DNA from: Gemmatimonadaceae bacterium
Lineage (GTDB): Bacteria > Gemmatimonadota > Gemmatimonadetes > Gemmatimonadales > Gemmatimonadaceae
Direction of reading: 5' to 3'
Length of the DNA stretch: 42,308 nt
Assembly (NCBI GenBank): GCA_035533015.1
Contig: DATLUQ010000055.1
Location: forward strand, 1 to 42,308
A program made the position numbers and the translations under genes. This document shows, in pieces, positions 6,790 to 29,742 of this stretch. Positions within the stretch are counted from its first letter, which is position 1, and every line of letters begins with the position of its first letter. The notes under the pieces are model-generated. The model searched no databases. It saw only the letters and a list, made by a program, of their open reading frames with translations, and was not told the DNA's origin.

Positions 6790-7466
6790 GACTGGCGCCT
6801 TGTCCGGCGGACCAACGACGGCAGAAACGACAGCGCCAGCAGCAGGAAACTGGCGGCTACTACCTGGAGCCATGCGGTCCGCGACGTGCCCGAGATGCCC
6901 AGCGCCAGACTCTGCGCGAACCAGGTGTACACGAGTGTGCCGGGGATGATGCCCAGCGCCGTGCCCACGACGAACGCGCGCGTCGGCACACGCGCCAGTC
7001 CGGACGCGACACTCAATCCGTCGAACGGAATGAGCGGAATCAAGCGAAGGCGCCCGATGGCCATCGCACCCGTCCGCGACGACAACGTGTCGAGCCGCGC
7101 GGCGTGGCGGCCCAGCAGGAGCCGGATCGCGTCGGCGCCGAGCGCACGCGCCAGAATAAACGATCCGGTGGCGCCAATCGTCGCGGCCATCCAGTTGAGC
7201 GCCGACCCCTTGGCGAATCCAAACACGATGCCTCCGGCGAGCGTGAACGGCGTGGCCGGCAGCGCCAGCGTGGCCGCCACGGCGTACACCAGCACGAACA
7301 GTGCCGACGCTCCCGGGGCACTGCGGAGGCGCGCAGCCAGTCCCAGCGGATCGCCGAGCATTCCGGCCGCCGTCCCCCGGAGGGCCAACCCGGCGGCCGC
7401 GATCAGGGCGACGAAGATGCCCAGCCGAATGAGGGCCGCACGGCGCGAGATGGACGGCGTACTCAT
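6786..7466 (-). CDS. TVP38/TMEM64 (DedA-like, VTT domain) membrane protein
   Basis: The 226-residue protein has a hydrophobic N-terminal helix, a central VTT domain ('TLALPATPFTLAGGIVFGFAKGSALNWMAATIGATGSFILAR', then 'RLRLIPLIPFDGLSVASGLARVPTRAFVVGTALGIIPGTLVYTWF') and a terminal helix with a basic tail (RRTRRQS). TVP38/DedA-related proteins act in lipid scrambling or ion-coupled membrane transport; the substrate of this one is unknown. The start at 7466 overlaps the stop of the upstream MerA-like gene (ATGA). Genes for TVP38 proteins and MerA-like flavoproteins often sit together or are fused in other bacteria, which supports a shared membrane-linked redox function. Confidence 0.85.
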   Translation of the reverse strand: MSTPSISRRAALIRLGIFVALIAAAGLALRGTAAGMLGDPLGLAARLRSAPGASALFVLVYAVAATLALPATPFTLAGGIVFGFAKGSALNWMAATIGATGSFILARALGADAIRLLLGRHAARLDTLSSRTGAMAIGRLRLIPLIPFDGLSVASGLARVPTRAFVVGTALGIIPGTLVYTWFAQSLALGISGTSRTAWLQVVAASFLLLALSFLPSLVRRTRRQS

Positions 7467-9019
7467 CGAAACAGCGAGAACCACGCGCCGAACAGCCGGC
7501 GCGCCAGCGGCGTCAACCGCGTGCGTCGCCAGGCGTCCGCGGCTCGACGATACACTTCGGCCTGGGTCGGATACGCGTGGATGGTACCGCCCAGCGCACC
7601 CAAGCCCAAACGGTTGGTGATGGCCACCGCCAGCTCGCCGATCATCTCCCCCGCGTGATCCGCAACGAGCGTTCCGCCGAGAATACGATCGCTGCCGGCC
7701 CGCAGATGGACCTTGAGAAATCCACCGTCGGCCCCGTCGAGCACGGCGCGGTCCACGTGCGACAACTCCACGGTGACGGTCTCCACCTTGCGCCCGGCGG
7801 CCTCCGCCTCGGCCGGCGTGAGCCCCACGTGCGCCACTTCGGGCGACGTGTAGGTCACGCGAGGCACGACAAGTTTGCTGTTACGTCCCCCACCGATGCC
7901 GAAGAAGAGCGCGTTGGGGACGGCCAGCCGGGCCTGGGCATCAGCGACGTGCGTGAACTGGAGCGGCGACGAGACGTCGCCGATAGCGTACACGCGACGA
8001 TTGCTGGTGCGCAGCCGGTCGTTGACGGTGATTCCGGTCGGCGAATACGCAATGCCGGCCGCGTCGAGCCCGAGGTTGTCCACGTTCGGCGCCCGCCCGG
8101 TCGCGATGAGCAGCCGGTCGCCCCGAATCGTCACGCTCCCCTGCGCGCCCGTCGCCGTCACGGTGAATTCCGCTCCGGCATACGACACGGACGTCAGGCG
8201 GTGATCGTGGTGCTGCGCGACGCCGTCGGCCCGGAGCGACGCCGAGACCAACTCGGCCGCGTCGGCGTCTTCGCGCGGCAGCAGGCGCGGACCGGCATTC
8301 ACCAGGGTGACGGCCGTGCCCAATCGCGCGAACGCCTGCGCCAACTCCGCGCCGATCGGTCCGCCACCCACCACGATCAGATGTCGCGGGCGTTCGGTCA
8401 CGGTGAAGATGGTCTCGTTGGTGTCGAACGGCGTGTCGGCAAGGCCGGGAACGAGCGGCACGGCGGCGCGCGCGCCGGTCGCGACGATGGCGCGACGGAA
8501 TCGCACCGTGCGGTCTCCGATGCGCACCGCATCCGGCGCCACGAATGCCGCGTCGCTCAGAAAGACGTCGACGCCCAGGCCGCGGAACCGCGCGGCCGAA
8601 TCGACGTCGCTCAACCCCGCTCGCAGGCCGCGGAGCCGGGCCATCGCCGCGGCGAAATCGCCGTCGCCCGATGCGCGCGGCCCCCCGAAAGCGGCGGCCG
8701 AGCCGCGCGCGTCATGCCACCCGCGGGCGGCACGGATGACCGCTTTGGACGGCACGCATCCCACGTTGAGGCAGTCGCCGCCGAGCATGGCGCGTTCAAC
8801 CAGGGCAACGCGCGCGCCCAACCCCGCGCCGATGGCGGCGCTCACGAGACCGGCGGTGCCGCCACCGATCACGACCAGGTGATAGCGATCGCGTTTCGGC
8901 GGCAGCGGCCAGCCGCGAGGACTCACATTGCCCGCCCAGTGCGCGTTCGGCGCATCGAACGGCGGCGCCGCGAAGCGCCCGGGCCAGTCAGCCGGCGGGT
9001 CAGGGAATGTTCGTGTCAC
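7463..9019 (-). CDS. MerA-like pyridine nucleotide-disulfide oxidoreductase (mercuric reductase family, no C-terminal Cys pair)
   Basis: The 518-residue flavoprotein has an FAD-binding 'LVVIGGGTAGLVSAAIGAGLGARVALVER', the redox disulfide G-G-D-C83-L-N-V-G-C88-V-P-S-K, an NAD(P)H-binding 'LIVVGGGPIGAELAQAFARLG', the 'YAIGDV' motif and a C-terminal dimerisation domain with 'HAYPTQAEV'. It differs from true MerA in ending 'RRLFGAWFSLFR', without the vicinal Cys pair that delivers Hg(II). Its physiological substrate is therefore probably something other than mercuric ion. I place the start at a GTG at 9019, since the open frame to 9190 runs through the mer promoter and into merR on the other strand. 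The GTG lacks a strong Shine-Dalgarno, so the start is less certain than the gene. Confidence 0.88.
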   Translation of the reverse strand: MTRTFPDPPADWPGRFAAPPFDAPNAHWAGNVSPRGWPLPPKRDRYHLVVIGGGTAGLVSAAIGAGLGARVALVERAMLGGDCLNVGCVPSKAVIRAARGWHDARGSAAAFGGPRASGDGDFAAAMARLRGLRAGLSDVDSAARFRGLGVDVFLSDAAFVAPDAVRIGDRTVRFRRAIVATGARAAVPLVPGLADTPFDTNETIFTVTERPRHLIVVGGGPIGAELAQAFARLGTAVTLVNAGPRLLPREDADAAELVSASLRADGVAQHHDHRLTSVSYAGAEFTVTATGAQGSVTIRGDRLLIATGRAPNVDNLGLDAAGIAYSPTGITVNDRLRTSNRRVYAIGDVSSPLQFTHVADAQARLAVPNALFFGIGGGRNSKLVVPRVTYTSPEVAHVGLTPAEAEAAGRKVETVTVELSHVDRAVLDGADGGFLKVHLRAGSDRILGGTLVADHAGEMIGELAVAITNRLGLGALGGTIHAYPTQAEVYRRAADAWRRTRLTPLARRLFGAWFSLFR

Positions 9020-9117
9020 GTCGGCGACGGTCCTTGAAGAGTTGCGTGCGGTGCGTCGTGTAGCGGGGCAACCGGCAGCTGCCCGGAAAAGTTCAATGCA
9101 CGACGCGGCGATGCCTC

Positions 9118-9149
9118 TTGACCCTATACCAAGGTATAGGGTGTAGGAT
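9118..9149 (+). promoter_or_regulatory. MerR-type promoter and operator of the mer operon
   Basis: The -35 TTGACC (9118-9123) and -10 TAGGAT (9144-9149) are separated by 20 bp, the over-long spacer typical of MerR-activated promoters. The spacer holds a perfect dyad: CCTATACC-AA-GGTATAGG extended by one A-T and one more C-G pair, giving 10-bp arms at 9121-9130 and 9133-9142. It lies 29 bases ahead of the merR start on the same strand, so merR is autoregulated and co-transcribed with merC-like and merA rather than divergent from them as in Tn501 or Tn21. Confidence 0.88.
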
Positions 9150-9177
9150 TCAGGATCACGCGATGAGGAGGGGGGCG

Positions 9178-9591
9178 ATGGCGCTGTCAATCGGTCAGGT
9201 CGCCGCAGCGGCCGATGTCAACATCCAAACCATTCGGTACTACGAGCGCCGCGGCATTCTTGTCCCCGCGAGTCGGACACCCGCGGGGTACCGCAAATAC
9301 GGGGACGACGCGGTGTCCCGGCTGCAATTCATTCGCCACGCCCAGGCGCTCGGGTTCACGCTCGGCGAGATCGACGAACTGCTGGCCCTCCGCGTCCGCG
9401 ATGCCGGCGCTTGCCGTCACGTCGAGAAACGGACGCGCGAGAAGATCGATGACGTGGACCTCCGCATTCGCGAGCTCCGGAAGATCAAACGGACTCTGGA
9501 GCGCCTCGCGGCGACCTGCGAGAGTCGACGGACCACGAACGCGTGTCCCATTCTGGAGGCACTGGAAGACAATGCCGATTTTGGAAGATAA
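9178..9591 (+). CDS. merR: Mercury-type MerR transcriptional regulator
   Basis: The 137-residue regulator has an N-terminal winged helix-turn-helix ('SIGQVAAAADVNIQTIRYYERRGIL', then 'PAGYRKYGDDAVSRLQFI'), a long dimerisation helix and a C-terminal metal site. The three cysteines C79, C114 and C123 are spaced 35 and 9 residues apart. This is the same spacing as the Hg(II) ligands C82, C117 and C126 of Tn501 MerR, so mercury sensing is well supported. The ATG at 9178 has GAGGAGGGG just upstream; an upstream reading from 9118 would include the promoter. The end overlaps the start of the MerC-like gene by 20 bases, and merA follows. Confidence 0.92.
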   Translation: MALSIGQVAAAADVNIQTIRYYERRGILVPASRTPAGYRKYGDDAVSRLQFIRHAQALGFTLGEIDELLALRVRDAGACRHVEKRTREKIDDVDLRIRELRKIKRTLERLAATCESRRTTNACPILEALEDNADFGR

Positions 9592-9967
9592 GGGAACGAC
9601 CTCGGCCGTTGGCGGACTCGCCGGGGCCGCCGCAAGTTCCGTCGCGTTGCTCTGTTGCGCAGGCGCAGGCCCGGCGCTCGCATTAGCCACTGCCCTGGGT
9701 CTCGGCTTTCTGATCCACGATGCAGTGCTGATCCCGCTGCTCGTCATCGCGCTGGGCGTCACCATGTGGGGGCTGAGCGATGGGCGAGGCCGCCATGGCA
9801 AGCCGTGGCCCCAGCATCTCGGAACCGTGGGTGCGGTGTGTACCCTGGGCGGGATGTTCGTCTGGCTGCCGCTTGCGTACGCCGGACTCGGCATGATCAT
9901 CGCGGCCAGCGCGTGGAATCTCTGGCTGACGCATCGGTGCGCGGCCCCCGACCGGCAGACCATTTGA
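9572..9967 (+). CDS. merC: MerC-like mercuric ion transport protein
   Basis: The 131-residue membrane protein has four hydrophobic segments (about 12-30, 34-60, 70-92 and 95-118). A vicinal pair C28-C29 sits in the first segment, followed by 'ALATALGLGFLIHDAVLIPLL' and a last helix 'AYAGLGMIIAASAWNLWL'. This matches MerC in length and helix pattern; MerC helices 1 and 4 carry similar sequence, although MerC has C-x-x-C in helix 1 where this protein has C-C. The role is uptake of Hg(II) across the inner membrane to MerA. The ATG at 9572 lies inside the end of merR, so translation is coupled. No merP or merT gene is present between merR and merA. Confidence 0.72.
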   Translation: MPILEDKGTTSAVGGLAGAAASSVALLCCAGAGPALALATALGLGFLIHDAVLIPLLVIALGVTMWGLSDGRGRHGKPWPQHLGTVGAVCTLGGMFVWLPLAYAGLGMIIAASAWNLWLTHRCAAPDRQTI

Positions 9968-9997
9968 CGGATTGTCTCCCACGACGTGAGGTGCATG

Positions 9998-11443
9998 ATG
10001 GCTAAGGGCAGCGGCACAAAGCACGTCCACGCCGGTCGCGGTATGGAATACGACGTAGCCGTGATCGGCGGGGGCTCGGCCGGCTTCGCGGCCGCGATCC
10101 GTGCCGCGGAACTGGGCGCCCGGGTGGCCATGCTCGAGGGCGGCACGCTCGGCGGTACGTGCGTCAACGTGGGGTGTGTACCATCCAAGACGCTGATTCG
10201 CGCCGCCGAAGCGCAGCACCATCGCCAGCACCACGGGTTCCACGGTATTGCGACATCTGATGGCGTGCCCGACTGGGCCGCGGTGCGCGCGCAGAAGGAC
10301 GAACTCGTCGCGACGCTGCGACAGGCCAAGTACCGCGACGTGATCCAGGGGTACGAGTCGGTGACTCTGTTCGAGCAACGGGCGGCCATCACCTCGGACC
10401 ACGGCATCGACGTCGCCGACGGACGCCGGATCCGCGCTGGCAAGATCATCATCGCGACCGGCGCCTCGGCGTGGGCCGCACCGATTCCGGGGCTCGCTGA
10501 AGCCGGGTATCTGGATAACGATTCAGCCATGGCGCTCGACGAGTTGCCAGCGTCTCTGATTGTGATCGGGGCGAGCGCGGTGGGACTCGAACTGGCCCAG
10601 ATGTTCTCGCGTTTGGGGGTACATGTCACCGTGCTCGAGGCGCTGCCGACCGTCGTGCCCATGGAAGACGCCGACGTGGGACGCGCGCTCGGCGACTATC
10701 TGCGCGCGGAAGGCCTGGACGTACGCGTCGGCGTCCGGATTGCGCATGTGGCGCGCACGGATGGGGCGTACCACGTATCGCTCACCGACGACGGCCGGCC
10801 GGAGACCGTGCACGCCGCCCAACTGCTCGTCGCAACTGGGCGGCGGCCGAACACTCACGGGTTCGGTCTCGAGGCGACTGGCGTGATGTTGGGGAAGAAG
10901 GGAGAAGTCGTCGTGGACGAGTTCTTGCAGACCGCCAACCCCGACATCTATGCGGCGGGCGACGTGATCGGCGATCCGGCGTTCGTGTACGTGGCGGCGT
11001 ATGGCGGGTCGCTGGCCGCGGAGAACGCGCTGACCGGAAACGCGCGGCGCTTCGACCTGACCGCCCTACCCAAGGTCACGTTCACGGACCCCGGCGTGGC
11101 GTCGGTGGGCCTCACCGAGGTCGAGGCGCGAGCCAACGGGGGGACGGTCGTCGTGTCCATCCTCTCGATGGAACACGTGCCGCGCGCGCTGGCCGCCCGC
11201 GACACCCGCGGGTTCGTGAAGCTCGTGGCGGACGCGGCCACACGAAAGATCGTCGGCGCGCACATCCTCTCGACCGAAGCGGGCGAGATGATCACCGAGC
11301 CCGCGCTGGCCATCAAGTTCGGACTGACGATCGAGGATCTGAAGGCCACCTTCCACCCCTATCTGACGCTGGCCGAAGCGATCAAGCTCGCGGCGCAGAC
11401 CTTCGACAAGGACGTGGCCAAGTTGTCGTGCTGCGCCGCGTGA
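9998..11443 (+). CDS. merA: Mercuric reductase MerA (without N-terminal HMA domain)
   Basis: The 481-residue flavoenzyme reduces Hg(II) to volatile Hg(0) with NADPH in the cytoplasm. It has an FAD motif ('VAVIGGGSAGFAAAIRAAELGARVAMLEG'), the active-site disulfide G-G-T-C55-V-N-V-G-C60-V-P-S-K, an NADPH motif ('LIVIGASAVGLELAQMFSRLG') and the 'IYAAGDVIG' motif. The diagnostic vicinal cysteines C478-C479 lie two residues from the C-terminus (K-L-S-C-C-A-A), where they hand Hg(II) to the active site. There is no N-terminal metallochaperone-like domain. Of the possible starts GTG 9986, ATG 9995 and ATG 9998, the last has the best spacing from GAGG at 9988. It completes the mer operon. Confidence 0.93.
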   Translation: MAKGSGTKHVHAGRGMEYDVAVIGGGSAGFAAAIRAAELGARVAMLEGGTLGGTCVNVGCVPSKTLIRAAEAQHHRQHHGFHGIATSDGVPDWAAVRAQKDELVATLRQAKYRDVIQGYESVTLFEQRAAITSDHGIDVADGRRIRAGKIIIATGASAWAAPIPGLAEAGYLDNDSAMALDELPASLIVIGASAVGLELAQMFSRLGVHVTVLEALPTVVPMEDADVGRALGDYLRAEGLDVRVGVRIAHVARTDGAYHVSLTDDGRPETVHAAQLLVATGRRPNTHGFGLEATGVMLGKKGEVVVDEFLQTANPDIYAAGDVIGDPAFVYVAAYGGSLAAENALTGNARRFDLTALPKVTFTDPGVASVGLTEVEARANGGTVVVSILSMEHVPRALAARDTRGFVKLVADAATRKIVGAHILSTEAGEMITEPALAIKFGLTIEDLKATFHPYLTLAEAIKLAAQTFDKDVAKLSCCAA

Positions 11444-11520: not shown

Positions 11521-11937
11521 CTATGCGCCGGTTGGCACCGGCCCGTAGATCGCGCCGACGGTCGCACCGTACAGGAGGTGGCCGATCAGGGCGCCCATGG
11601 CGCTCATCATCGATCCCGAGAACAGCGGCATGCCCATCATGGGCAGCATGACGATCTCAAACACCAGCCAGGGTGCAATGCCGTAGATTGCGCCCCGCAG
11701 CCAGGGGGCGCCCGGAAGCCGCGAGGCCACGGCTGCGTAGATCAGCGCCAGAACCACGCCAACCATGAAGTGCGCTACCCACCCCGCGGCCATGTTGCCG
11801 CCCATCTTGCCGGCCAGCATCGCCGCCGGATTCATCTGAGGGATTCCCATCATCGGCGCCGCATACAGGCCGACGACCGTCAGCACCACTGTTCCGACCA
11901 GCCCGCCGACCACCGCCTTGCCGTAATTGATCTTCAT
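11521..11937 (-). CDS. DUF6789-like four-helix membrane protein
   Basis: The 138-residue protein is almost entirely membrane: hydrophobic segments at about 8-28, 50-70, 76-96 and 108-130. Recognisable family stretches are 'GGLVGTVVLTVVGLYAAPMMG', 'MNPAAMLAGKMGGNMAAGWVAHFMVGVVLALIYAAV', 'GAPWLRGAIYGIAPWLVFEIVMLPMMGMPLFSG' and 'GALIGHLLYGATVGAIYG'. Methionine-rich loops (P-M-M-G) are frequent. The role is unknown. The start could also be the in-frame ATG at 11943; I chose 11937 because GGGGTG lies 6 bases before it. It is divergent from the AhpD-like selenoprotein gene and convergent with merA. Confidence 0.7.
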   Translation of the reverse strand: MKINYGKAVVGGLVGTVVLTVVGLYAAPMMGIPQMNPAAMLAGKMGGNMAAGWVAHFMVGVVLALIYAAVASRLPGAPWLRGAIYGIAPWLVFEIVMLPMMGMPLFSGSMMSAMGALIGHLLYGATVGAIYGPVPTGA

Positions 11938-12063
11938 GACCATCACCCCACGGTTGGAGAGAACGCGCATGGTAGATCTGCGCTGCAGGGGCAAGCATCG
12001 ACGGGGCTGAATCGTCCCCCAAAGCGCTACGTTATGATGTAACCGTCTACGAGGTGGTACGCC

Positions 12064-12597
12064 ATGACCAGTTGGATCGAGCTGCCAGATGAAGATCGGG
12101 TGGAGGGACCCCTTGCCGAGGCGTATGCGCGCGTGGCCGCCGCCCGCGGCGCGGTCGGGAACATCCTCAAGGCGCACGCGACGCGTCCGGCGGCGCTCGT
12201 CGCGCATCTCGACCTGTATCGCGAACTCATGTTCAGCCGCTCCGAATTGAGCCGCGCCGAGCGGGAATTGATCGCGTCCGTGGTCTCTTCCGTGAACGGG
12301 TGCCGGTATTGAATGCACCATCACGGAGGGTCGCTCCGTCAGCTCACGAAGGATCCGGCGCTGGTCGATGCCGTGCTCGCCGACCCGCGGGGAGCATCGT
12401 TGCCACCGCGCTGGCGCGTGCTCGCCGACTTCGCGATCGCGTTGACGGTGCAGCCCAGCGCGGTCTCCGGAGCCGACGCGGCTGCCTTGCGGGCCGTCGG
12501 CCTGTCCGACGCGGGGCTGCACGACGTCGTGGCGGTGACCGCGTATTTCAACTTCGTCAACCGGATGGCGGAGGGGTTGAACATCCCGCTGGAGTAA
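12064..12597 (+). CDS. Predicted selenoprotein, AhpD-like / peroxidase-related carboxymuconolactone decarboxylase fold; UGA at 12310-12312 read as Sec
   Basis: The frame starts at ATG 12064 (GAGGTGG upstream), reaches TGA at 12310-12312 and continues in frame to 12597. Read through, the 177-residue product aligns along its whole length with peroxidase-related AhpD-like enzymes. Conserved stretches are 'NILKAHATRPAALVAHLDLYRELMF', 'LSRAERELIASVVSSVNGC80-R-Y-U83-M-H-H-H-G' and 'VVAVTAYFNFVNRMAEGLNI'. The family motif here is N-x-C-x-Y-C-x-x-H-H-G, so the UGA falls exactly on the second redox cysteine and the active site would be Cys-x-x-Sec. Such enzymes act as thiol-dependent peroxidases or reductases on small substrates; the true substrate is unknown. 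A SECIS-like hairpin follows. Ordinary gene callers will report two fragments or a pseudogene. Confidence 0.87.
12323..12339 (+). promoter_or_regulatory. Bacterial SECIS-like hairpin after the AhpD-like UGA
   Basis: ACGGAG (12323-12328) pairs perfectly with CTCCGT (12334-12339) around the loop GGTCG (12329-12333). Sixteen bases separate the UGA from the loop. The loop begins GGUC, as does the apical loop of the well-studied E. coli fdhF SECIS (GGUCU), which is bound by SelB. Distance, stem length and loop sequence all fit the bacterial SECIS pattern; binding itself is inferred. Confidence 0.68.
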
Positions 12598-12630: not shown

Positions 12631-12996
12631 TCACGGCCCGTGCACGGCTGCCACGTCCTCGCGGCCGGCCAGGGCGGTCTCCATCGCACCCACTGAGATC
12701 GCGAAGTGGGAAGCGCTCCAGAGCGCGGTGCCGTCGCGCAGCAGGATCACCTGCGGCGATGCGTGGCCGATGCCCAGCGTGTCGGCGACGCGCTGCGACG
12801 TCTCGCGCTGCGTGAGCACGTCGATCAGGACCACCGGCACGTCGTCGTGACGCTGCGCATACCTCGACACTTCTCCGAGCGCACGCAGCGATGTCGGGCA
12901 CGCCGGGCTGTGCTTGAATACCCAGCGGACCCCCGGCGAGTGGAGTTCGGCTGGAATGGTCGATCCGGGCTGACGGGCAAGGCGATGTATGCTCAT
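12631..12996 (-). CDS. YtxJ/BrxC-type monothiol bacilliredoxin-like protein
   Basis: The 121-residue thioredoxin-fold protein contains 'WVFKHSPAC33PTSLRAL', 'VPVVLIDVLTQRETSQRVADTLGIGHASPQVILLRDGTALWSASHFAISVGAMETAL'. This is the YtxJ/BrxC pattern, with a single active-site cysteine in H-S-x-x-C-P and a cis-proline loop in H-x-S-P-Q. In Firmicutes these proteins remove bacillithiol from mixed disulfides; related low-molecular-weight thiols are known or predicted in other phyla. The start at 12996 is preceded by AGGAA at suitable spacing; the reading from 13116 adds a non-conserved N-terminus. It converges on the AhpD-like selenoprotein gene and is divergent from the ECF sigma gene, suggesting a thiol-redox theme. 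Confidence 0.8.
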   Translation of the reverse strand: MSIHRLARQPGSTIPAELHSPGVRWVFKHSPACPTSLRALGEVSRYAQRHDDVPVVLIDVLTQRETSQRVADTLGIGHASPQVILLRDGTALWSASHFAISVGAMETALAGREDVAAVHGP

Positions 12997-13194
12997 GGGG
13001 TTCCTGATCCTGGCAGAAGGGACGACCGACGCGGGGGGCGGTCGTATTGCTCCGCGACTCCGTGTGGCAACTGGACAAGTGTTCACCCCGTCGTTCAGTT
13101 CCATGGCACGCCACAACGCCCGAGCGCCAACCCCGGGAAGTCGGGCCGCTCAACCGAATAGAGTCGCGATGGAACCATTCCAACGGAGGTCCGG

Positions 13195-19427: not shown

Positions 19428-20434
19428 TTCTCGCCTGCGATGTCGGGGGCACCAAGACCAACGTGGCGCTCTTCGAGCGCAACGATCGCGCGTGGCGCAT
19501 GGTGCGGATGGATTCGTACCCCAGCCACGACCAGGGTTCGTTGCACGAGATCATCGCCGCCTTCGTCGGCGATGCGTCGCTCCAACTCGAGGCCGCCGGA
19601 TTCGGCGTCGCGGGGTCCGTGTCGGGAGACCGGGCGGACACCACGAACCTGCCATGGGCGGTGGACGGGCGCCGCCTCGCCCGCGTGCTGGGGATCAACC
19701 GCGTTTCCCTGCTCAACGACGTCGAGATCCAGGCATGGTCGCTGCTCGCGCTCGAACCGACCGACCAGGTGACGCTGCAAGCCGGCCCGCGTGGCGCCGG
19801 CAATCTCGCCGTGATCGCGGCGGGCACCGGGCTCGGCATGTCGGCCCTCGTGCGCGGCACCGGCGCCACCCGCTCGCTCGCCAGCGAGGGCGGCCACGCC
19901 GACTTCGCACCGAGCGACGAGACTGACCTCGCCCTCCTACGGTATTTACGAAAGCGGTTCGGCCACGTGAGCGCCGAGCGCGTGCTCTCGGGCCCGGGAC
20001 TCCACAACGTCTACGAGTTCTTTCGTGATCGGGACGGCGGCACGGAGCCGTCCTGGCTGGCCGCTGCGATCGCGGCGGGCGACCCCGCTGCGACGGTGGC
20101 CCACGCGGCCATGGACGGCAGCAGTGCCCTCGCGGAGCAGGCGGTCCTCCACTTCCTCGGTGCGTATGGCGCCGAGGCCGGCAACTGGGCATTGCGGACC
20201 ATGGCGACCGGCGGCGTGTGGTTGGGCGGCGGCGTGGCGCGCAAGCTGCTCGTGGGGCCGGCGGGAACGCCCGACGCCTGGCAGGCGCGGGCCCGCGACG
20301 CCTTTCTGGCCCGGTTTCGCGACAAGGGACGGCTCAGCGGGATTCTCGACGCGATGGCCGTCCACGTGATCGTCTGCGATGAGGCGCCGCTGTTGGGGGC
20401 GGCCCACTTCGCGCTCTCGGAGATCGGCCGTTGA
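19424..20434 (+). CDS. glk: Glucokinase
   Basis: The 336-residue enzyme phosphorylates glucose with ATP to glucose 6-phosphate. The ATP-binding 'LACDVGGTKTNVALFE' is at the N-terminus. The sugar-binding 'TNLPW' and 'LLNDVEIQAWSLLAL', the second phosphate motif 'VIAAGTGLGMSAL' and the family block 'SEGGHADFAPSDETDLALLRYLRKRFG' follow. The ATG at 19424 is preceded by GGGAGGA and overlaps the glucosidase stop. It takes glucose released by the upstream glucosidase and feeds zwf downstream. Confidence 0.93.
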
Positions 20435-20469
20435 GGCCGTCACGGTCAACACCAGAGGAAGACAGGTAT

Positions 20470-21480
20470 ATGCAAATTGGAATGATCGGCCTCGGACGCA
20501 TGGGTGCGAACATGGTACGCCGGTTGCGCCGGCGCGGACATGACGCGGTCGTGTTCGACCGCGCCCAACCGTCGGTGGAGGCCCTCGTCCGGGAAGGCGC
20601 CGAGGGCGCGACCTCCCTCGCCGACCTTGCGCGGCGGCTCGACGCGCCCCGGGTAGTGTGGCTGATGGTGCCGGCGGCGGTGGTTGACGCGACGATCGCC
20701 GAGTTGGCCCCGTTGCTGGCGCCCGGCGACATCATCGTGGACGGCGGGAACTCTTACTACGTCGACGACCTACGACGCGCGCACGACCTGGCCGCCCACG
20801 GCATTCACTATGTCGACGTTGGCACGAGCGGCGGCGTCTTCGGGTTGGAGCGCGGCTACTGCCAGATGATCGGCGGCGAAACCGACATTGTGCGGCACCT
20901 GGATCCCATCTTCGCCGCCCTGGCGCCACCGAAGGAATCGGCGCCGCCCACGCCGGGCCGCGAGGGAAGATCCGGCACCGCCGAATTGGGCTACCTGCAC
21001 TGCGGGCCGTCCGGCGCCGGGCACTTCGTCAAGATGGTGCACAACGGCATCGAGTACGGCATCATGGCAGCGTATGCCGAGGGGCTGAGCATTCTGCGCC
21101 ACGCCAACGTGGGACGCGCGCCACAGGAACACGACGCCGAGACGACGCCTCTCCGCAATCCGGAGCACTACCAGTACGACCTCGACGTCGGTGAGGTCGC
21201 CGAGGTGTGGCGGCGTGGCAGTGTCGTGTCATCCTGGCTTCTCGATCTGACGGCCGAAGCGCTGCTCGGCGCCCCCGATCTATCGAGTTACGCGGGCCGC
21301 GTCTCCGATTCGGGCGAAGGACGCTGGACAGTCAAGGCCGCCATCGATGAGGCGGTGCCAGCCCCCGTGCTCACCACCGCACTCTACCAACGGTTCTCCT
21401 CGCGCGGCGAAGCCGACTATGCCGACAAGATCCTGTCCGCCATGCGGGCCGCCTTCGGCGGCCACCGGGAGAAGCCATGA
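20470..21480 (+). CDS. gnd: 6-phosphogluconate dehydrogenase, decarboxylating (short GntZ/YqeC type)
   Basis: The 336-residue protein has a Rossmann start '[30 protein letters not shown]', then '[47 protein letters not shown]' and the catalytic block '[22 protein letters not shown]' (Lys and His-Asn-Gly). It oxidises and decarboxylates 6-phosphogluconate to ribulose 5-phosphate. The short length (about 300-340 rather than 470) marks the YqeC-like form, often NAD-preferring, but the cofactor is not proven here. A small insertion ('[19 protein letters not shown]') precedes the catalytic block. Its stop overlaps zwf by four bases. Confidence 0.92.
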
Positions 21481-22847
21481 CGCCGCCGCGGTCCGGAGCG
21501 CTGGTCTTCTACGGAGCGACCGGCGACCTCGCGTACAAGAAGATCTTCCCTGCCCTCCAGCGCATGGTGAAGGCCGGCGTCCTGGACGTGCCGGTGATCG
21601 GCGTGGCACGTCAGGGCTGGTCGCTCGACCAGCTCCAGGCCCGGGCCCGCGAGAGCGTCGTCCAACATGGCGGCGGCGTCGATCCGGTGGCGTTCCCCAC
21701 GCTTATGCGCCTGCTCCGCTATGTGGAGGGCGACTACGCGGCGCCAGGGACCTTCGACCAACTGCGGCGTGAACTGGGCGACGCCACACACGCCCTGCAC
21801 TACCTGGCCATCCCCCAGTCGCTGTTCGAGGTGGTGATCAGCCAGCTCAACCGCACCGGCTGCGACCAGAGCGCGCGCCTCGTCCTCGAAAAGCCGTTCG
21901 GCACCGACCTGGCCTCGGCCCGGCAACTCAATGGCATCCTGCACCGATGCTTCGACGAGTCCGCGATCTTCCGCATCGATCACTACCTGGGCAAGGAAGC
22001 CGTGCAGAATCTGGTCTTCTTCCGCTTCGCCAACACGTTTCTCGAGCCGATCTGGAACCGGCGTTACGTCGAGAACGTGCAGATCACCATGGCCGAGCCG
22101 TTCGGCATCAAGGGGCGCGGCGCGTTCTACGATCAGACGGGAGCGATCCGCGACGTCGTTCAGAATCATCTGCTCCAAGTGCTCTCCAACATCGCTATGG
22201 AACCGCCGCCGCGGAGCCACGACACCGAGACCCTGCGCGACGAGAAGGTCAAGGTGCTCAAAGCCATCGCGCCACTCGACCCCCGCCACGTGGTGCGCGG
22301 CCAGGTCCGCGGCTATCTCGACGAACCGGGCGTGGCGCCGGGGTCTCGCACCGAAACGTTCGCCGCGCTCCAACTCCGCATCGAGTCGTGGCGTTGGGAC
22401 GGCGTGCCGTTCTTCATCCGCACGGGCAAGAGCCTGCCCGCGGCCTGCACCGAAGTCGTGGTCAAGCTGCGCCGCCCCCCGCCGGTCGCGGGCGTGCCCC
22501 TGGTCTCGAATCACGTGCGCTTTCAACTCGGTCCGGCGTTCCAGATCGGGCTCGGCGCGACCGTCCGCGAACCCGGGCTTCCGCAGGGCCACCCACTCGA
22601 ACTGCTGGCCACGCACGACCACAAGGGCGCGGAGACCGATCCCTACGCCGAGTTGCTGGGCGACGCGATGCGTGGCGAGACGTTCCGCTTCGCGCGCCAG
22701 GACTATGTGGAGGAGGCGTGGCGCATCGTCGATCCGATTCTCGACGTCGCGACATCACCCATCATCTACGAACCCGGGTCGTGGGGCCCCGCCGAAGCGC
22801 TGAAGCTGGTGCCGGGCGGATGGGCGGAACTCCCGAGGAGATCATAG
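21477..22847 (+). CDS. zwf: Glucose-6-phosphate 1-dehydrogenase
   Basis: The 456-residue enzyme oxidises glucose 6-phosphate to 6-phosphogluconolactone, the first step of the oxidative pentose phosphate pathway. Visible landmarks are '[22 protein letters not shown]' (coenzyme site), '[14 protein letters not shown]' and the active-site '[21 protein letters not shown]'. Further on are '[29 protein letters not shown]' and '[12 protein letters not shown]'. It is slightly shorter than the usual 480-500 residues but all core blocks are present. It overlaps gnd (ATGA), and the histidine phosphatase follows 3 bases later. Confidence 0.95.
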
Positions 22848-22850
22848 ACC

Positions 22851-23444
22851 ATGTCTGACGCGCACCCGACACTCTGGCTGTGCCGCCACGGCGAAACGCC
22901 CTGGACGGTGCTCGGCCGCCACACCGGCCGCACTGACGTCGCGCTCACCCCACGAGGCGAGCGGCAGGCGGTGGCGCTCGGCCGACGCCTCGCGTGTCGG
23001 CCATTCGCCCTCGTACTCACCAGTCCCCTCGTGCGCGCGCGCGACACCTGCCGGCTCGCGGGCTACGGCGACACGGCGGTGATCGAACCCGACCTGCAGG
23101 AGTGGGACTACGGCGCGTATGAGGGGCTGACCACCCAGGAGATTCGGGTCGAACAGCCGGCGTGGACCAACTGGAAGGACGGCGCTCCGCTCGGCGAGAG
23201 CCCCACCGACGTGGGGCGCCGGGCGGACCGCGTGATCGCGCGGGTGCGCGGCATCGACGGCGACGGGGCGGTGTTCGCCCACGGCCACCTGCTGCGCGTG
23301 CTCGCCGCCCGCTGGCTCGGCCTCCCGCCGAGCGCGGGCGCCCTGTACGCGCTCGACACGGCGTCGGTCAGCGTCATGGGTTTCGAGCGGGAGCAACGCG
23401 TGATCCACCACTGGAACGAGATCTGCCATCTGGAGGAGGCGTGA
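22851..23444 (+). CDS. Histidine phosphatase family protein
   Basis: The 197-residue protein has the phosphohistidine motif L-C-R-H-G-E-T ('LWLCRHGETPWTVLGRHTGRTDVALTPRGERQAVALGRRL'), 'VLTSPLVRARDTCRLAG', 'LQEWDYGAYEGLT' and the second catalytic histidine in 'GAVFAHGHLLRVLAARWLG'. It is a phosphatase or mutase of the phosphoglycerate-mutase superfamily acting on small phosphate esters. Placed between zwf and pgl, it may dephosphorylate a sugar phosphate of this pathway; that link is inference from position. The stop overlaps pgl by one base (TGATG). Confidence 0.9.
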   Translation: MSDAHPTLWLCRHGETPWTVLGRHTGRTDVALTPRGERQAVALGRRLACRPFALVLTSPLVRARDTCRLAGYGDTAVIEPDLQEWDYGAYEGLTTQEIRVEQPAWTNWKDGAPLGESPTDVGRRADRVIARVRGIDGDGAVFAHGHLLRVLAARWLGLPPSAGALYALDTASVSVMGFEREQRVIHHWNEICHLEEA

Positions 23445-24142
23445 TGCGCGAGGAAACCCTGCCGGACGCGGAATCCGTGGCGCACCGGGCCGCCCAGGTC
23501 ATCGCGGAGGACGCGCGACGTGCCGTAGCGGCGCGTGGCCGGTTCCTGCTGGCCACGAGCGGCGGCACGACACCCTGGCGCATGCTGCGCCTGCTCGTCG
23601 ACGAGGACGTGCCCTGGTCGCAGGTGCACCTGTTCCAGGTGGATGAGCGCGTCGCGCCGGAGGGCCACCCCGATCGCAACCTGACGCACCTGCGGGAGTC
23701 CCTGTTAGCGCACCTCCCGGTGCCGCCCGCCGGCATATATGCGATGCCGGTGAACGCGCCCGACCTCGAGCGTGCCGCGGCGGAGTACGCCGCAACGCTA
23801 CACAATGAAGCGGGAAATCCACCGGTGCTGGACCTCGTGCACCTCGGCCTCGGCGAGGACGGTCACACCGCCTCCATCGTGCCGGGCGATGCCAGGCTCA
23901 CCGCCGCGACCGCCGATGTCGCGGCCACAGCGACGTACGCGGGCTACCGGCGGTTGACACTCACCGTGCCGGCGATCAATCGCGCGCGAGCAATTCTGTG
24001 GGTCGTGACCGGCGCCGCGAAGGGGCCGGCACTCGCGCGCCTGCGCCACGCCGACCGGCTCGTCCCGGCCGGGCGCATCCGCCGCGACGGCGCCACCATT
24101 CTCAATGACGCGGCCGCCGATCTGGCGTCGCTCTCACGCTGA
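23444..24142 (+). CDS. pgl: 6-phosphogluconolactonase
   Basis: The 232-residue enzyme hydrolyses 6-phosphogluconolactone to 6-phosphogluconate, linking zwf to gnd. Family landmarks are '[18 protein letters not shown]', '[33 protein letters not shown]', '[21 protein letters not shown]' and '[14 protein letters not shown]'. The ATG at 23444 has GGAGGAGG upstream and overlaps the preceding stop by one base; the open frame to 23162 is inside the histidine phosphatase gene. Confidence 0.93.
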
Positions 24143-24152
24143 CCGAGGCCCC

Positions 24153-26204
24153 ATGCCGCTCCAGACCGATATCGACCAACTCTCCATCGCGACGATCCGC
24201 ACACTCTGCATCGACGCCGTGCAGCAGGCGAACTCTGGCCATCCGGGCACCCCAATGGCCATGGCGCCGGTGGTCTATGCGCTCTGGCAGCGGGTGCTGC
24301 GATTCGACCCCGACGATCCGATCTGGCCCAATCGCGACCGCTTCGTGCTGTCCATGGGCCACGCGTCAACGCTGCTCTATAGCCTGCTCCATCTGACCGG
24401 CACCAGGGCGGTGGACAGCGACTACGAGCGACTCGGTCACGTCGCCGTGTCGCTCGACGACCTCCGGCGGTTCCGTCAACTCGAGAGCCGCTGTCCCGGG
24501 CATCCCGAGTATCACTGGACCTCTGGCGTGGAGACGACGACGGGGCCGCTCGGCCAGGGCGTGGCCACCAGCGTGGGCATGGCCATCGCCGAGCGCTGGA
24601 TAGCCGCCAAGTTCAACCGCCCGGGGTTCGACCTCATCGACTACGACGTGTACGCGCTGGCCGGTGACGGCTGCATGATGGAAGGCGTATCCGGCGAGGC
24701 GGCGTCCCTCGCCGGTCATCTCGGGCTCGGCAACCTTTGCTGGATCTACGACAACAACCGGATCACCATCGAAGGGAGCACGTCGCTCGCCTTCTCCGAG
24801 GACGTCGCCACGCGATTCATCGCGTACGGGTGGAACGTCACGCGCGTCGGCGACGCGAACGATCTGGAGATGCTGTCGCGGGCCCTGGCCACGTTCAAAC
24901 GCACCACGGGGCGGCCCACGCTCATCATCGTCGATAGCCACATCGGCTATGGTTCGCCCAACAAGCAGGATTCGCACTCGGCCCACGGCGAGCCGTTGGG
25001 CCAGGAGGAGGTGCGCCTCACCAAGCGCGCGTATGGATGGCCGGAAGACGCCCAGTTCATGGTGCCCGACGAGGTGCGCGCGCACTTCGCGCGCACCATC
25101 GGGGCCCGCGGAGCCGGCCTGCGCGCGGAATGGACCAAAGGGTTCGCACAGTACCGCGCGCAACACCCCGATCTCGCCGATGAGTTCGATCGCATGCAAC
25201 ACCGCCTGTTGCCGGACGGGTGGGATCGGAACGTACCCGAGTTCCCGGCCGACCCCAAAGGGGTCTCGGGGCGCGACGCGTCGGCGCAGGTGCTGAACGC
25301 CATCGCCGCGAATCTTCCGTGGCTGGTGGGCGGATCGTCGGACCTCGCACCCTCCACCAAGACGCGGTTGACGTTCGACGGCGCCGGTGACCTCTCGGCC
25401 GCGAATCCAGCCGGCCGGAACTTCCATTTCGGGGTGCGCGAGCACGCCATGGGCTCCATTCTCAACGGACTCGCGCTCTCCAAACTGCGGGCGTTTGGGT
25501 CGCAGTTCCTGATCTTCAGCGACTACTCGCGCCCCACGCTCCGGCTGTCGGCGCTCATGGAACTGCCGGTCATCTACATCTACACGCACGACTCCATCGG
25601 TGTCGGCGAGGACGGCCCCACCCACCAGCCCGTGGAGCAGATCGCGTCGCTCCGTGCCATTCCGGGCCTGCGCGTGTTCCGTCCAGGCGACGCCAATGAG
25701 GTGGTCGCCGCGTGGCGCGCCATCGTCCCGCTCCGGCATGAACCGGTGGCGCTCGTGCTCTCCCGGCAGGCATTGCCCACGCTCGATCGGTCGCGCTACG
25801 CGTCGGCCGACGGCGTGGCCCGCGGGGCGTACGTCCTCGCCACGGCGCCGGACGGCCCACCCCAGGTGCTGCTCCTCGGAACCGGCAGCGAGGTGTCCCT
25901 CTGTGTGGCCGCGCACGAGCGCCTCATCGCCGAGGGCATTCGCAGCCGCGTCGTCAGCATGCCGTGCTGGGAGCTGTTTGAGGAGCAGGACCAGGCGTAC
26001 CGCGACGCCGTGCTCCCGCCCGGCGTCACGGCGCGCGTCGCCGTCGAACAGGCCTCGACCTTCGGCTGGGAACGCTACACCGGCCTCTCGGGGCGCGTCA
26101 TCGGCATGCGATCGTTCGGGGCTTCGGCCCCCCTCAAGGAATTGCTCACGAAATTCGGATTCACGGTGGACGCCGTCGTGGCCGCCGCCAAGGAGATGCT
26201 GTGA
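24153..26204 (+). CDS. tkt: Transketolase
   Basis: The 683-residue thiamine-diphosphate enzyme interconverts pentose and hexose/triose phosphates. It has the N-terminal '[20 protein letters not shown]', the ThDP/Mg motif '[41 protein letters not shown]' (G-D-G ... N-N), '[19 protein letters not shown]' with the catalytic Glu, and '[37 protein letters not shown]'. The ATG at 24153 has GAGG at good spacing. It is translationally coupled to pgi (GTGA overlap). Confidence 0.95.
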
Positions 26205-27790
26205 ACACCACGCAGTTATGGGATCGGTACCGGGAACGGCTGTGCATCGTGGACGCCCTTGGGCTGTCGCTGGACATCTCGCGCATGCGCTTCGACGACG
26301 GATTCCTGGAGCGGATGGCGGCGCCGATGGCGCGGGCGTTCCAGGCCATGGAGGCGCTCGAACAGGGCGCCGTGGCCAACCTCGACGAGCAGCGCCGCGT
26401 GGGACACTACTGGCTGCGCGCGCCCGAACTCGCGCCCGAGGCCGCCATCACCGACGCGATCGTCGCGGTCCAGCAGCAGGTGCGTGCGTTCGCCGCGGAC
26501 GTGCACGCAGGCCGCGTGGCACCCGTCCGCGCGGAGCGTTTCCGCCACGTGCTCGTGATCGGCATCGGCGGCTCGGCCCTCGGGCCGCAGCTCGTGGGCG
26601 ACGCGCTCGGCACCGCCAGCGATCCGCTGGCCGTACACTTCTTCGACAACACGGACGCTGACGGCATGGCGCGCACGCTGGCGCGCCTGGGCGACGGGCT
26701 GGCCAGCACGCTCACCCTGGTCATCTCCAAGTCCGGCGGCACCAAGGAAACCCGCAACGGCATGCTGATCGCCGCCAAGGCGTACGAGGGTCTGGGCCTC
26801 CCGTTCCCGCGCCACGCGGTGGTGGTTACGGGCGCCGACAGCGCCCTCGACCGTACGGCGCGGGCCGACGGGTGGCTGGCGCGGTTCCCGATGTGGGACT
26901 GGGTGGGCGGTCGCACGTCCGTGCTCTCGGCCGTGGGGCTGCTTCCCGCCGCGTTGCAGGGGTTCGACATCGACGCCATGCTGGGCGGCGCGCGCGACAT
27001 GGACGTGGCCACGCGCCACCCCGCCGTGGCCCGCAATCCCGCCGCGTTGCTCGCGCTCATGTGGCACCACGCGGGCGGCGGCACCGGCGCCAAGGACATG
27101 GTGGTCCTGCCCTATCGGGATCGCCTGCTCCTGTTCTCGCGCTATCTCCAGCAGTTGGTCATGGAATCGCTCGGCAAGGAACGCAATCTCGCCGGCGAGA
27201 TCGTACACCAGGGGATCGCGGTGTACGGGAACAAGGGCTCCACCGATCAACACGCGTATGTGCAGCAGCTGCGCGACGGCGTGGACAACTTCTTCGTCAC
27301 GTTCATCCAGGTGCTGCACGACCAGGCCGGGACCCCGCAGGAAGTCGAGCCCGATACCACGTCGGGCGACTATCTGCTCGGATTCCTGCTCGGCACCCGC
27401 GAAGCCCTGTTCCAGAACGGCCGTGAGTCCGTCTCCATCACCGTCCCCGACGTCAGCGCCCGGACCCTCGGGGCGCTGATCGCGCTCTATGAACGGGCCG
27501 TCGGTCTCTATGCCTCGCTGGTCGGTATCAACGCCTACCATCAGCCAGGCGTGGAGGCCGGGAAGACGGCGGCGACCGCGGTGATCGCGCTGCAGCACGC
27601 TGTGCTCGGCGCGCTCCGCCGCACGCCGGGCACGTCGCGCACCGCCGCCCAGTGGGCAGCGGCGGCGGACGCGGCCGATCAGTCCGAGACGGTCCACAAA
27701 GTGCTCGAACACCTGGCGGCGAATGGTCGCGTCGTGCGCACGCCCGGCGGCCCCACCGATTCACGGTATGCACTGCCGCAGGTGCGCTGA
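26201..27790 (+). CDS. pgi: Glucose-6-phosphate isomerase
   Basis: The 529-residue enzyme interconverts glucose 6-phosphate and fructose 6-phosphate. Landmarks are '[18 protein letters not shown]', '[20 protein letters not shown]', '[18 protein letters not shown]', the active-site region '[31 protein letters not shown]' and '[10 protein letters not shown]'. The start is GTG at 26201 overlapping the tkt stop. It returns fructose 6-phosphate made by transketolase and transaldolase to glucose 6-phosphate, so the array can run as a cycle. It is followed by tal, with which pgi is fused in some bacteria. Confidence 0.95.
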
Positions 27791-27841
27791 CCCACACCCC
27801 GCATACACGCCCAATCGGCCTCCTCACACACCGGATGTCCC

Positions 27842-28993
27842 ATGTCGAATCCTCTCGTCACCTTGCAGCAACTCGGCCAGTCGCCGTGGCACGACAACAT
27901 CCGCCGCGATCTCATCACGAGCGGGCAACTCGCGCGGATGATCGTCGACGGCGACATCACCGGCCTCACGTCGAACCCGACCATCTTCGAACAGGCCATC
28001 GCCAACACCGACGCCTACGACCACACCATCCGCACCCTGGCGGCGGAGGGCAGGAGCGCCGAACAGATCTTTGACGCCCTGGCCATCGCCGACATCCGCG
28101 ACGCGGCGGACCTGTTCCTGCCGGTGTTCGAGCGCACCGAGGGGAGCGACGGCTATGTCAGCATCGAGGTGGCGCCCACGCTCGCCGACGACACGGCGGG
28201 CACGCTCGCCGAGGCCCGCCGCCTCTGGCGCGCCGTGGACCGCCCGAACCTGCTAGTCAAGATCCCGGCGACGCTGGCCGGACTCGGCGCCATTGAGGGC
28301 GCGATCGCCGAGGGCATCAGCGTCAACGTCACACTCATCTTCTCGCTCGAGCGATACGCGGCCGTGATGGCGGCGTACATCGCCGGCCTGCGAACGCGCA
28401 CCAATGCCGGCAAGGGTCTCGGCACCATCTTCTCGGTCGCGAGCTTCTTCGTCAGCCGCGTCGACACGGCGGTGGACCGGCTGCTCGACGAGCGGATCGC
28501 GGCAGCCCCCGGCAACGCCGCGGGGCTTGCCGAACTGTGGGGCAAGGCCGGCATCGCCAACGCGAAGCTGGCGTACGCCGCCTGCCAACGGGTGTTCGGC
28601 GGCCCAGGATTTACGCACTTGGCCGCGCGCGGCGCCCGGCGTCAACGTCCGCTCTGGGCGAGCACGTCGTCCAAGAATCCGGCGTACCCCGACACCTACT
28701 ATGTGGAGGCACTCATCGGCGCCGACACCGTCGACACCATGCCGCCCGCCACGATCGCCGCGTATCGCAACCACGGGGCGCCCGCGCTTCGAATCGGCGA
28801 CGGCCTGGATGCCGCGGGCGAGACAATCGCCGCGCTCGGCGCCGCTGGCATCGACCTCACGGGTGTGCTCGGGCGCCTCGAAATCGAGGGGGTCGCGTCA
28901 TTTGGCAAATCATATGATTCACTCCTCGCGGTGATCGCCGAGCGCGCGGCCGCGACGGGCCGCCTCGCCCGTACAATCGGGCGGGCGGGATGA
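27842..28993 (+). CDS. tal: Transaldolase (long, TalB/actinobacterial type)
   Basis: The 383-residue enzyme transfers a dihydroxyacetone unit between sugar phosphates. It begins 'NPLVTLQQLGQSPWHDNIRRDLITSGQLARMIVDGDITGLTSNPTIFEQAI'. The Schiff-base lysine is in 'NLLVKIPAT', followed by 'ISVNVTLIFSLERYAAVMAAYIAGL', 'SVASFFVSRVDTAVDRLL' and 'QRPLWASTSSKNPAYPDTYYVEALIGADTVDTMPP'. Length and motifs match the longer transaldolases of Actinobacteria and Cyanobacteria rather than the 320-residue E. coli form. The ATG at 27842 lies 51 bases after pgi, the largest gap in the array before the final HAD gene, and no strong Shine-Dalgarno is visible. Confidence 0.94.
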   Translation: MSNPLVTLQQLGQSPWHDNIRRDLITSGQLARMIVDGDITGLTSNPTIFEQAIANTDAYDHTIRTLAAEGRSAEQIFDALAIADIRDAADLFLPVFERTEGSDGYVSIEVAPTLADDTAGTLAEARRLWRAVDRPNLLVKIPATLAGLGAIEGAIAEGISVNVTLIFSLERYAAVMAAYIAGLRTRTNAGKGLGTIFSVASFFVSRVDTAVDRLLDERIAAAPGNAAGLAELWGKAGIANAKLAYAACQRVFGGPGFTHLAARGARRQRPLWASTSSKNPAYPDTYYVEALIGADTVDTMPPATIAAYRNHGAPALRIGDGLDAAGETIAALGAAGIDLTGVLGRLEIEGVASFGKSYDSLLAVIAERAAATGRLARTIGRAG

Positions 28994-29742
28994 CCGCCAT
29001 TCCCAGAATGTCCGACCAGGCCGCCGCCGAGCTGCCATGGCTCACCGTGACGCAGATGATCGAGGTGGATCGCGCCATGGTCGAGGACTATGGGATCGTC
29101 CTGCTGCAGATGATGGAGCTGGCGGGGCGGCACCTGGCGCACCTGGCCCGCGCGCGTTTCCTCGGCGATACGCCGGGCAGACGCCGGGTGGTCGTGCTCG
29201 CGGGGCCCGGCGGAAACGGCGGCGGCGCGCTGGTCTGCGCCCGGCGACTGGCCGGATGGGGCATGGATGTGTCGGTATTCGTGACCGCAGCGGCAGATCG
29301 TTTCTCCGAAGTGCCACGCCACCAGCTCGACATCGTCGCCCGACTGGGACTCGACGTGCACGACACCGACGATCCCTTGCCCGAACCACCTGACCTGGTC
29401 ATCGATGGCATCATCGGCTACAGCCTGCGGGGTGCGCCTCGCGGACGCACCGCAGAGTTGATTCGCTGGGCCAACCGCGGCACCGCCCCCGTGCTGGCAC
29501 TCGACGTCCCCTCTGGGCTGGATGCCACGACTGGCGCACCGACGGACCCATGCGTGCGCGCCACGGCGACGATGACCCTGGCCCTGCCCAAACAGGGGCT
29601 GGGCGCCGAACGCGCCACCGGGCCCGTAGGCCAACTGTATCTCGCCGATATCGGCGTCCCACCCGAGCTGTACGCGCGGCCACCACTCGGCGTACGGATT
29701 CCCGACGTCTTCGCGGGCAGCGACGTCGTGCGGTTGCGGTGA
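28990..29742 (+). CDS. nnrE: NAD(P)H-hydrate epimerase (YjeF N-terminal domain)
   Basis: The 250-residue protein matches the YjeF_N domain: 'QMIEVDRAMVEDYGI', 'VVVLAGPGGNGGGALVCARRLAGWGMDVSVF', 'DLVIDGIIGYSLRGAPRG' and 'VLALDVPSGLDATTGAP...CVRATATMTLALPKQGL'. It epimerises damaged, hydrated NAD(P)H so that a partner dehydratase can repair it. The dehydratase (NnrD) domain that is often fused C-terminally is absent. Its place among NADPH-producing enzymes (zwf, gnd) fits a cofactor-repair role. It overlaps tal by four bases and the debranching gene by one base. Confidence 0.88.
   Translation: MTAIPRMSDQAAAELPWLTVTQMIEVDRAMVEDYGIVLLQMMELAGRHLAHLARARFLGDTPGRRRVVVLAGPGGNGGGALVCARRLAGWGMDVSVFVTAAADRFSEVPRHQLDIVARLGLDVHDTDDPLPEPPDLVIDGIIGYSLRGAPRGRTAELIRWANRGTAPVLALDVPSGLDATTGAPTDPCVRATATMTLALPKQGLGAERATGPVGQLYLADIGVPPELYARPPLGVRIPDVFAGSDVVRLR

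Follow-up and report, generated by a model that had tools for sequence, protein, structure and literature searches.

A TGA-interrupted gene for an AhpD-like protein

The window, by which we mean the whole 42,308-nucleotide stretch of Gemmatimonadaceae DNA analysed here, carries on its forward strand a reading frame that starts with ATG at position 12064, ends with a TAA stop at 12597 and contains a single in-frame TGA, at codon 83 (12310-12312). A ribosome-binding-like site, GAGGTGG, can be read from the sequence at 12051-12057 on the same strand. An earlier note on this DNA had described a frame broken only by this TGA, and the start, stop and UGA coordinates it gave are exact. An ordinary list of open reading frames shows the gene as two separate ORFs, 82 and 94 amino acids long. 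With UGA read as selenocysteine (Sec), the predicted product has 177 residues and matches the NCBIfam family TIGR01926, 'peroxidase-related enzyme', over nearly its full length (residues 3-175; 173.4 bits, cut-off 81.8), with an additional match to Pfam CMD at 47.4 bits. The translated context of the UGA is NGC-R-Y-U-M-H-H-H-G, in which the first active-site cysteine, Cys80, is encoded by TGC at 12301-12303 (+).

The gene lies between a divergent gene for a DUF6789 membrane protein (11521-11943, minus strand; Pfam 66.2 bits) and a convergent gene for a YtxJ/BrxC-type monothiol bacilliredoxin (12631-13116, minus strand; TIGR04019 79.5 bits, cut-off 77.25; Pfam BrxC). The true start of the latter is probably further in, since the domain spans only residues 65-145 of the ORF. 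Its ACPTS motif, found here in Gemmatimonadota, points to a possible bacillithiol system. A flavoprotein disulfide reductase of the PRK06370/MerA/Lpd kind is encoded at 7463-9190 on the minus strand (NF004991 646.9 bits, cut-off 620; assignment also from synteny), and its start codon may likewise lie further in. Positions 9151-11443 (+) hold a mercury-resistance cluster comprising a MerR-type regulator, a MerC-like membrane protein and a MerA that scores 563.7 bits against TIGR02053 and has a C-terminal CC. Elsewhere, at 20431-31736 (+), a series of genes of central sugar metabolism encodes 6-phosphogluconate dehydrogenase, glucose-6-phosphate dehydrogenase, transketolase, phosphoglucose isomerase, transaldolase and a glycogen debranching enzyme.

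The locus from the same genus (L017, a Gemmatimonadota MAG) shows the order reductase, DUF6789, selenoprotein, bacilliredoxin-type gene and sigma factor, its DUF6789 protein being 73% identical to that of the window. The genes that flank the mer cluster in the window directly adjoin there, and about 2.5 kb with the mer genes has apparently been inserted in the window or lost in L017.

Codon pattern, selection and host machinery at the UGA

Four agreeing lines of evidence underlie the reading of the UGA as Sec: the codons found in homologues, selection, the Sec genes of the host and a downstream hairpin. Homologues were collected from GTDB genomes and relatives of the host, with a tblastn confirmation that would have retained TAA or TAG equally. 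At the aligned site, 53 of the 113 homologous hits have TGA, 36 have TGC and 24 have TGT (two pairs of duplicates and some distant paralogues are counted here), and none has TAA, TAG, Trp or any other residue. Removal of duplicates and weak hits left 43 Sec and 50 Cys homologues. Cys80 is a cysteine in all Sec homologues, and the codons at position 83 bear out the earlier proposal that the UGA sits on the second cysteine of the family motif.

We considered whether the UGA might be a true stop in a recent pseudogene or a sequencing error, as the two ORFs of 82 and 94 amino acids that assemblers and gene callers would give might suggest. The same TGA is nevertheless present in dozens of genomes, which belong to Gemmatimonadota, Acidobacteriota, Myxococcota, Krumholzibacteriota and Bacillota. 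Homologous TGA sites fall on the functional Cys column only. Comparison with the 76% identical same-genus homologue (L098, identical to L017) gave a dN of 0.125 against a dS of 1.14 before the UGA and a dN of 0.245 against a dS of 0.83 after it. Purifying selection acts on both sides of the codon, and in the homologue the frame stays open to either side of it, with no downstream frameshift. On the codon pattern and dN/dS we reject both the pseudogene and the sequencing-error readings as very improbable.

The host genome (3.03 Mb, 95% complete) contains selA (536 bits), selD (377.4 bits), tRNA-Sec (74.4 bits) and selB (286.5 bits for its best stretch, 320.6 together with its neighbours in frame), all above cut-off; selD lies next to tRNA-Sec. 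That the UGA is instead decoded as Trp through a code change, or as Cys by a special tRNA, would suit the Cys found in homologues but is scarcely credible beside a whole Sec pathway in the host, a homologous codon that is never TGG and a window in which UGA is not generally a sense codon. The last point follows from a search across the window for frames that a TGA joins and whose two halves both have coding composition. It gave just the codon 83 site and one other, the space that separates the MerC-like gene from merA; with the homologue codons, this result leads us to reject a general reassignment of UGA.

We put at about 95% the probability that the frame at 12064-12597 encodes a functional member of the known AhpD-like (TIGR01926, CxxU) selenoprotein family, the incorporation of Sec itself being what we infer from the genomic data. 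The earlier note had read the gene as a Cys-x-x-Sec AhpD-like selenoenzyme and had proposed looking for other stop codons at the site, for frameshifts and for the host Sec machinery; its reading is supported by the homologues, the selection, the machinery and the SECIS comparison below.

A SECIS-type hairpin follows the UGA

Downstream of the UGA, a candidate bacterial SECIS hairpin occupies 12323-12339 (+), with a 6-bp stem formed by ACGGAG (12323-12328) and CTCCGT (12334-12339) enclosing the loop GGTCG (12329-12333). The stem and GGUCG loop had been recognised in the earlier note, which placed the hairpin 16 bases after the UGA; this distance holds for the loop and not for the stem, which starts 10 bases after the UGA. 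In the bacterial SECIS model, the first two loop positions contain G, often followed by G or U, and the loop lies 16-37 nt from the UGA (PMC13188914). The small apical GGTCG loop at 16 nt agrees with this description, its folding energy not being individually significant. By itself, the hairpin does not exceed dinucleotide shuffles in stability (z = 0.06, 41 nt) and stands out only marginally from synonymous-codon shuffles (p = 0.043). It is displaced in the minimum-energy fold of a 91-nt stretch, and no Rfam match to it was found, whether the gathering score or an E-value limit of 10 was applied.

The hairpin is significant only by comparison with other Sec genes. With 300 synonymous-codon shuffles per gene that kept protein and codon usage, the mean hairpin z was 1.75 in the 43 Sec genes and 0.30 in the 50 Cys genes (Mann-Whitney p = 6.4e-8, a value that is not exact because the Sec set comes from genomes richer in G+C and is more interrelated than random genes would be). 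A hairpin at p < 0.1 is present in 81% of Sec homologues compared with 14% of Cys homologues, folding energy also differs between the two sets (p = 2e-4), and the Sec-gene hairpins place their loop 16-17 nt after the UGA. In a gapless alignment of 32 Sec sequences, 83.9% of cells pair in the hairpin, a figure favoured by the choice of the helix from the same 32 sequences. The compensatory changes are less affected by that choice: pairs 15-29, 17-27 and 20-24 show both-sided changes, the covariation score is 0.311 against 0.166 +/- 0.022 in shuffles, with 0 of 500 shuffles reaching it, and every slid control scores lower than the hairpin. SECIS modelling, as the earlier note had suggested, thus finds a hairpin that is weak by itself and kept in place, with compensatory changes, across the Sec homologues. 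SelB carrying Sec-tRNA-Sec would read UGA 83 as selenocysteine, with the hairpin at 12323-12339 assisting.

Active site and proposed chemistry

The proton relay of Mycobacterium tuberculosis AhpD consists of Glu118, Cys130, Cys133 and His137 (PMC3141380). By spacing, the E-x11-C-x2-C-x3-H pattern recurs in the window protein, the counterparts being Glu68 (codon 12265-12267, +), Cys80, Sec83 and His87 (codon 12322-12324, +). We picture an all-helical protein of 177 residues, whose active site would be Cys80-Arg-Tyr-Sec83, Glu68 and His87 supplying the remainder of the AhpD proton-relay motif. M. tuberculosis AhpD cross-links AhpC via Cys133 and not Cys130 (PMC6626918), and with Sec83 at the Cys133 position, Sec would be placed where the outgoing redox chemistry occurs. 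By analogy with the family, the most likely target of attack by Sec83 is a peroxide or a partner disulfide, and Cys80 would then resolve the selenenylsulfide (Se-S). Re-reduction would probably proceed through a low-molecular-weight thiol, a bacilliredoxin or a lipoamide route, and the flavoprotein disulfide reductase encoded next door may perhaps belong to this path.

A Cys-x-x-Sec peroxidase or thiol-transfer protein is on this analogy the likely function. We are less sure of the peroxidase role than of the Sec reading, because the window protein has Tyr82 at the AhpD His132 position, like Tyr50 of PA0269, a Tyr form with weak peroxidase activity only. Conceivably, the selenoprotein serves as a thiol-disulfide adaptor, for instance in bacilliredoxin or mercury-linked redox, and does not reduce peroxide. 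The convergent bacilliredoxin-type gene, a flavoprotein disulfide reductase that adjoins the gene in several lineages and the merR, MerC-like and merA genes beside it in the host genome all point in this direction, as does mycobacterial AhpD, itself an adaptor between Lpd/SucB and AhpC that receives electrons from Lpd through SucB (PMC6626918). We regard such a role as possible, if somewhat improbable. Its mercury version is countered by the same-genus locus, where the mer genes are absent at this position; their proximity in the window appears to be of recent date, any link to mercury is probably fortuitous and we rejected a mercury-resistance role on these grounds.

Neighbouring genes and a candidate electron donor

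For the selenoprotein with its Cys-x-x-Sec site, the neighbouring genes, the convergent bacilliredoxin-type gene among them, support a thiol-redox role. In a raw count among homologous loci, 14 have a gene for a flavoprotein disulfide reductase (PRK06370/Lpd/MerA-like) as the immediate neighbour of the Sec or Cys TIGR01926 gene, no more than about 110 bp away. Four of these loci are from Acidobacteriota (L018, L019, L025 and L031), one is from Bacillaceae (L046) and nine, with the Cys form, are from Bacteroidota (L048, L050, L054, L055, L064, L066, L067, L086 and L091). The orientation of the reductase varies by group, being upstream co-directional, divergent or downstream co-directional, which suggests that the pairing arose more than once.

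The reductase may be the electron donor of the selenoprotein, and the repeated adjacency makes this a testable idea for the family. A stronger version holds that the two are a dedicated pair for Sec peroxidase or thiol-transfer chemistry, driven by NAD(P)H and retained across Acidobacteriota, Gemmatimonadota and Bacillaceae and, in its Cys form, Bacteroidota; it is speculative and in our estimate unlikely. If it were true, an orphan selenoprotein family would gain its electron donor.

Phylogeny and distribution

In a tree of 93 proteins, sampled by nearness to the window protein and not as a census, the Sec and Cys forms are split by one branch (support 96/88). The Sec/Cys history on this tree requires one change, in 96% of bootstrap trees, and the tree is unrooted with respect to the direction of that change. 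The Sec side comprises Gemmatimonadota-type relatives together with Acidobacteriota, Myxococcota, Krumholzibacteriota and Bacillota; the Cys side is mostly Bacteroidota. Within the genus of the host, one genome (G002) has the gene, a second (G003) has selA but lacks the gene, and a third (G001) lacks both a full selA and the gene, a mixed presence that suggests frequent gain or loss.

Relatives of the host, from its own family and order, also encode many further AhpD-superfamily paralogues with one in-frame TGA each (L102-L113, L115, L116, L118, L121, L122, L125 and L126), several per genome, with motifs such as CRYU-IESHAEFLR and CxFU-xxSHAAVAA. Judged by these sequences, the host lineage seems rich in AhpD-type selenoproteins.

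Comparison with known AhpD-like selenoproteins

Selenoproteins of this kind have appeared in catalogues since 2005. The 2005 Sargasso Sea selenoproteome listed 27 AhpD-like proteins with CXXU (PMC1088965), and in the Global Ocean Sampling data AhpD-like 1 (CxxU, 299 sequences) ranked fourth among the families by number of sequences, with AhpD-like 2 (CxxU, 70 sequences) also listed (PMC2398784). Table 1 of a 2026 prokaryotic selenoprotein inventory gives 'AhpD-like protein, TIGR01926, CxxU', taken from the 2005 Sargasso Sea study, and ranks it among high-confidence predictions and not among verified selenoproteins (PMC13188914); in the literature searched, we found no experimental characterisation of the TIGR01926 CxxU family. 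In view of these catalogues, the high interest that the earlier note attached to the gene was overrated. What the window adds is a clear Gemmatimonadota member of a large selenoprotein family known from predictions, and an illustration that genuine recoded genes can be recognised in raw sequence where gene callers split them, here into pieces of 82 and 94 amino acids.

The boundaries of the assignment are set by related families. AhpD proper (TIGR00777, the M. tuberculosis type) is rejected at 18.7 bits against a cut-off of 191.95; the window protein shares E-x11-C-x2-C-x3-H with M. tuberculosis AhpD and differs in having Sec for Cys133 and Tyr82 for His132. NF041238, the AhpD_rel_CFYUT alkylhydroperoxidase-related (seleno)protein, is also CxxU and belongs to the same superfamily, but its model is twice as long (357 positions) and the window protein reaches 58 bits, below the cut-off of 175, which places it outside that family. 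The closest solved relative is 3c1l (E = 7e-35), a Cys-containing protein of TIGR01926 type; like 2pfx, 2oyo and 6k40, it belongs by sequence to the same family and has Cys at both active-site positions. With the catalogued TIGR01926 CxxU selenoproteins, the window gene shares the NCBIfam family, the Sec position and a SECIS hairpin right after the UGA. It differs from them in its host genus, which is new for the family (Gemmatimonadota, from a soil or similar MAG), and in a stem loop of five bases where three are commoner, which is no difference in principle. The gene is a new example and not a new kind, its family, Sec position and SECIS type all being already known.
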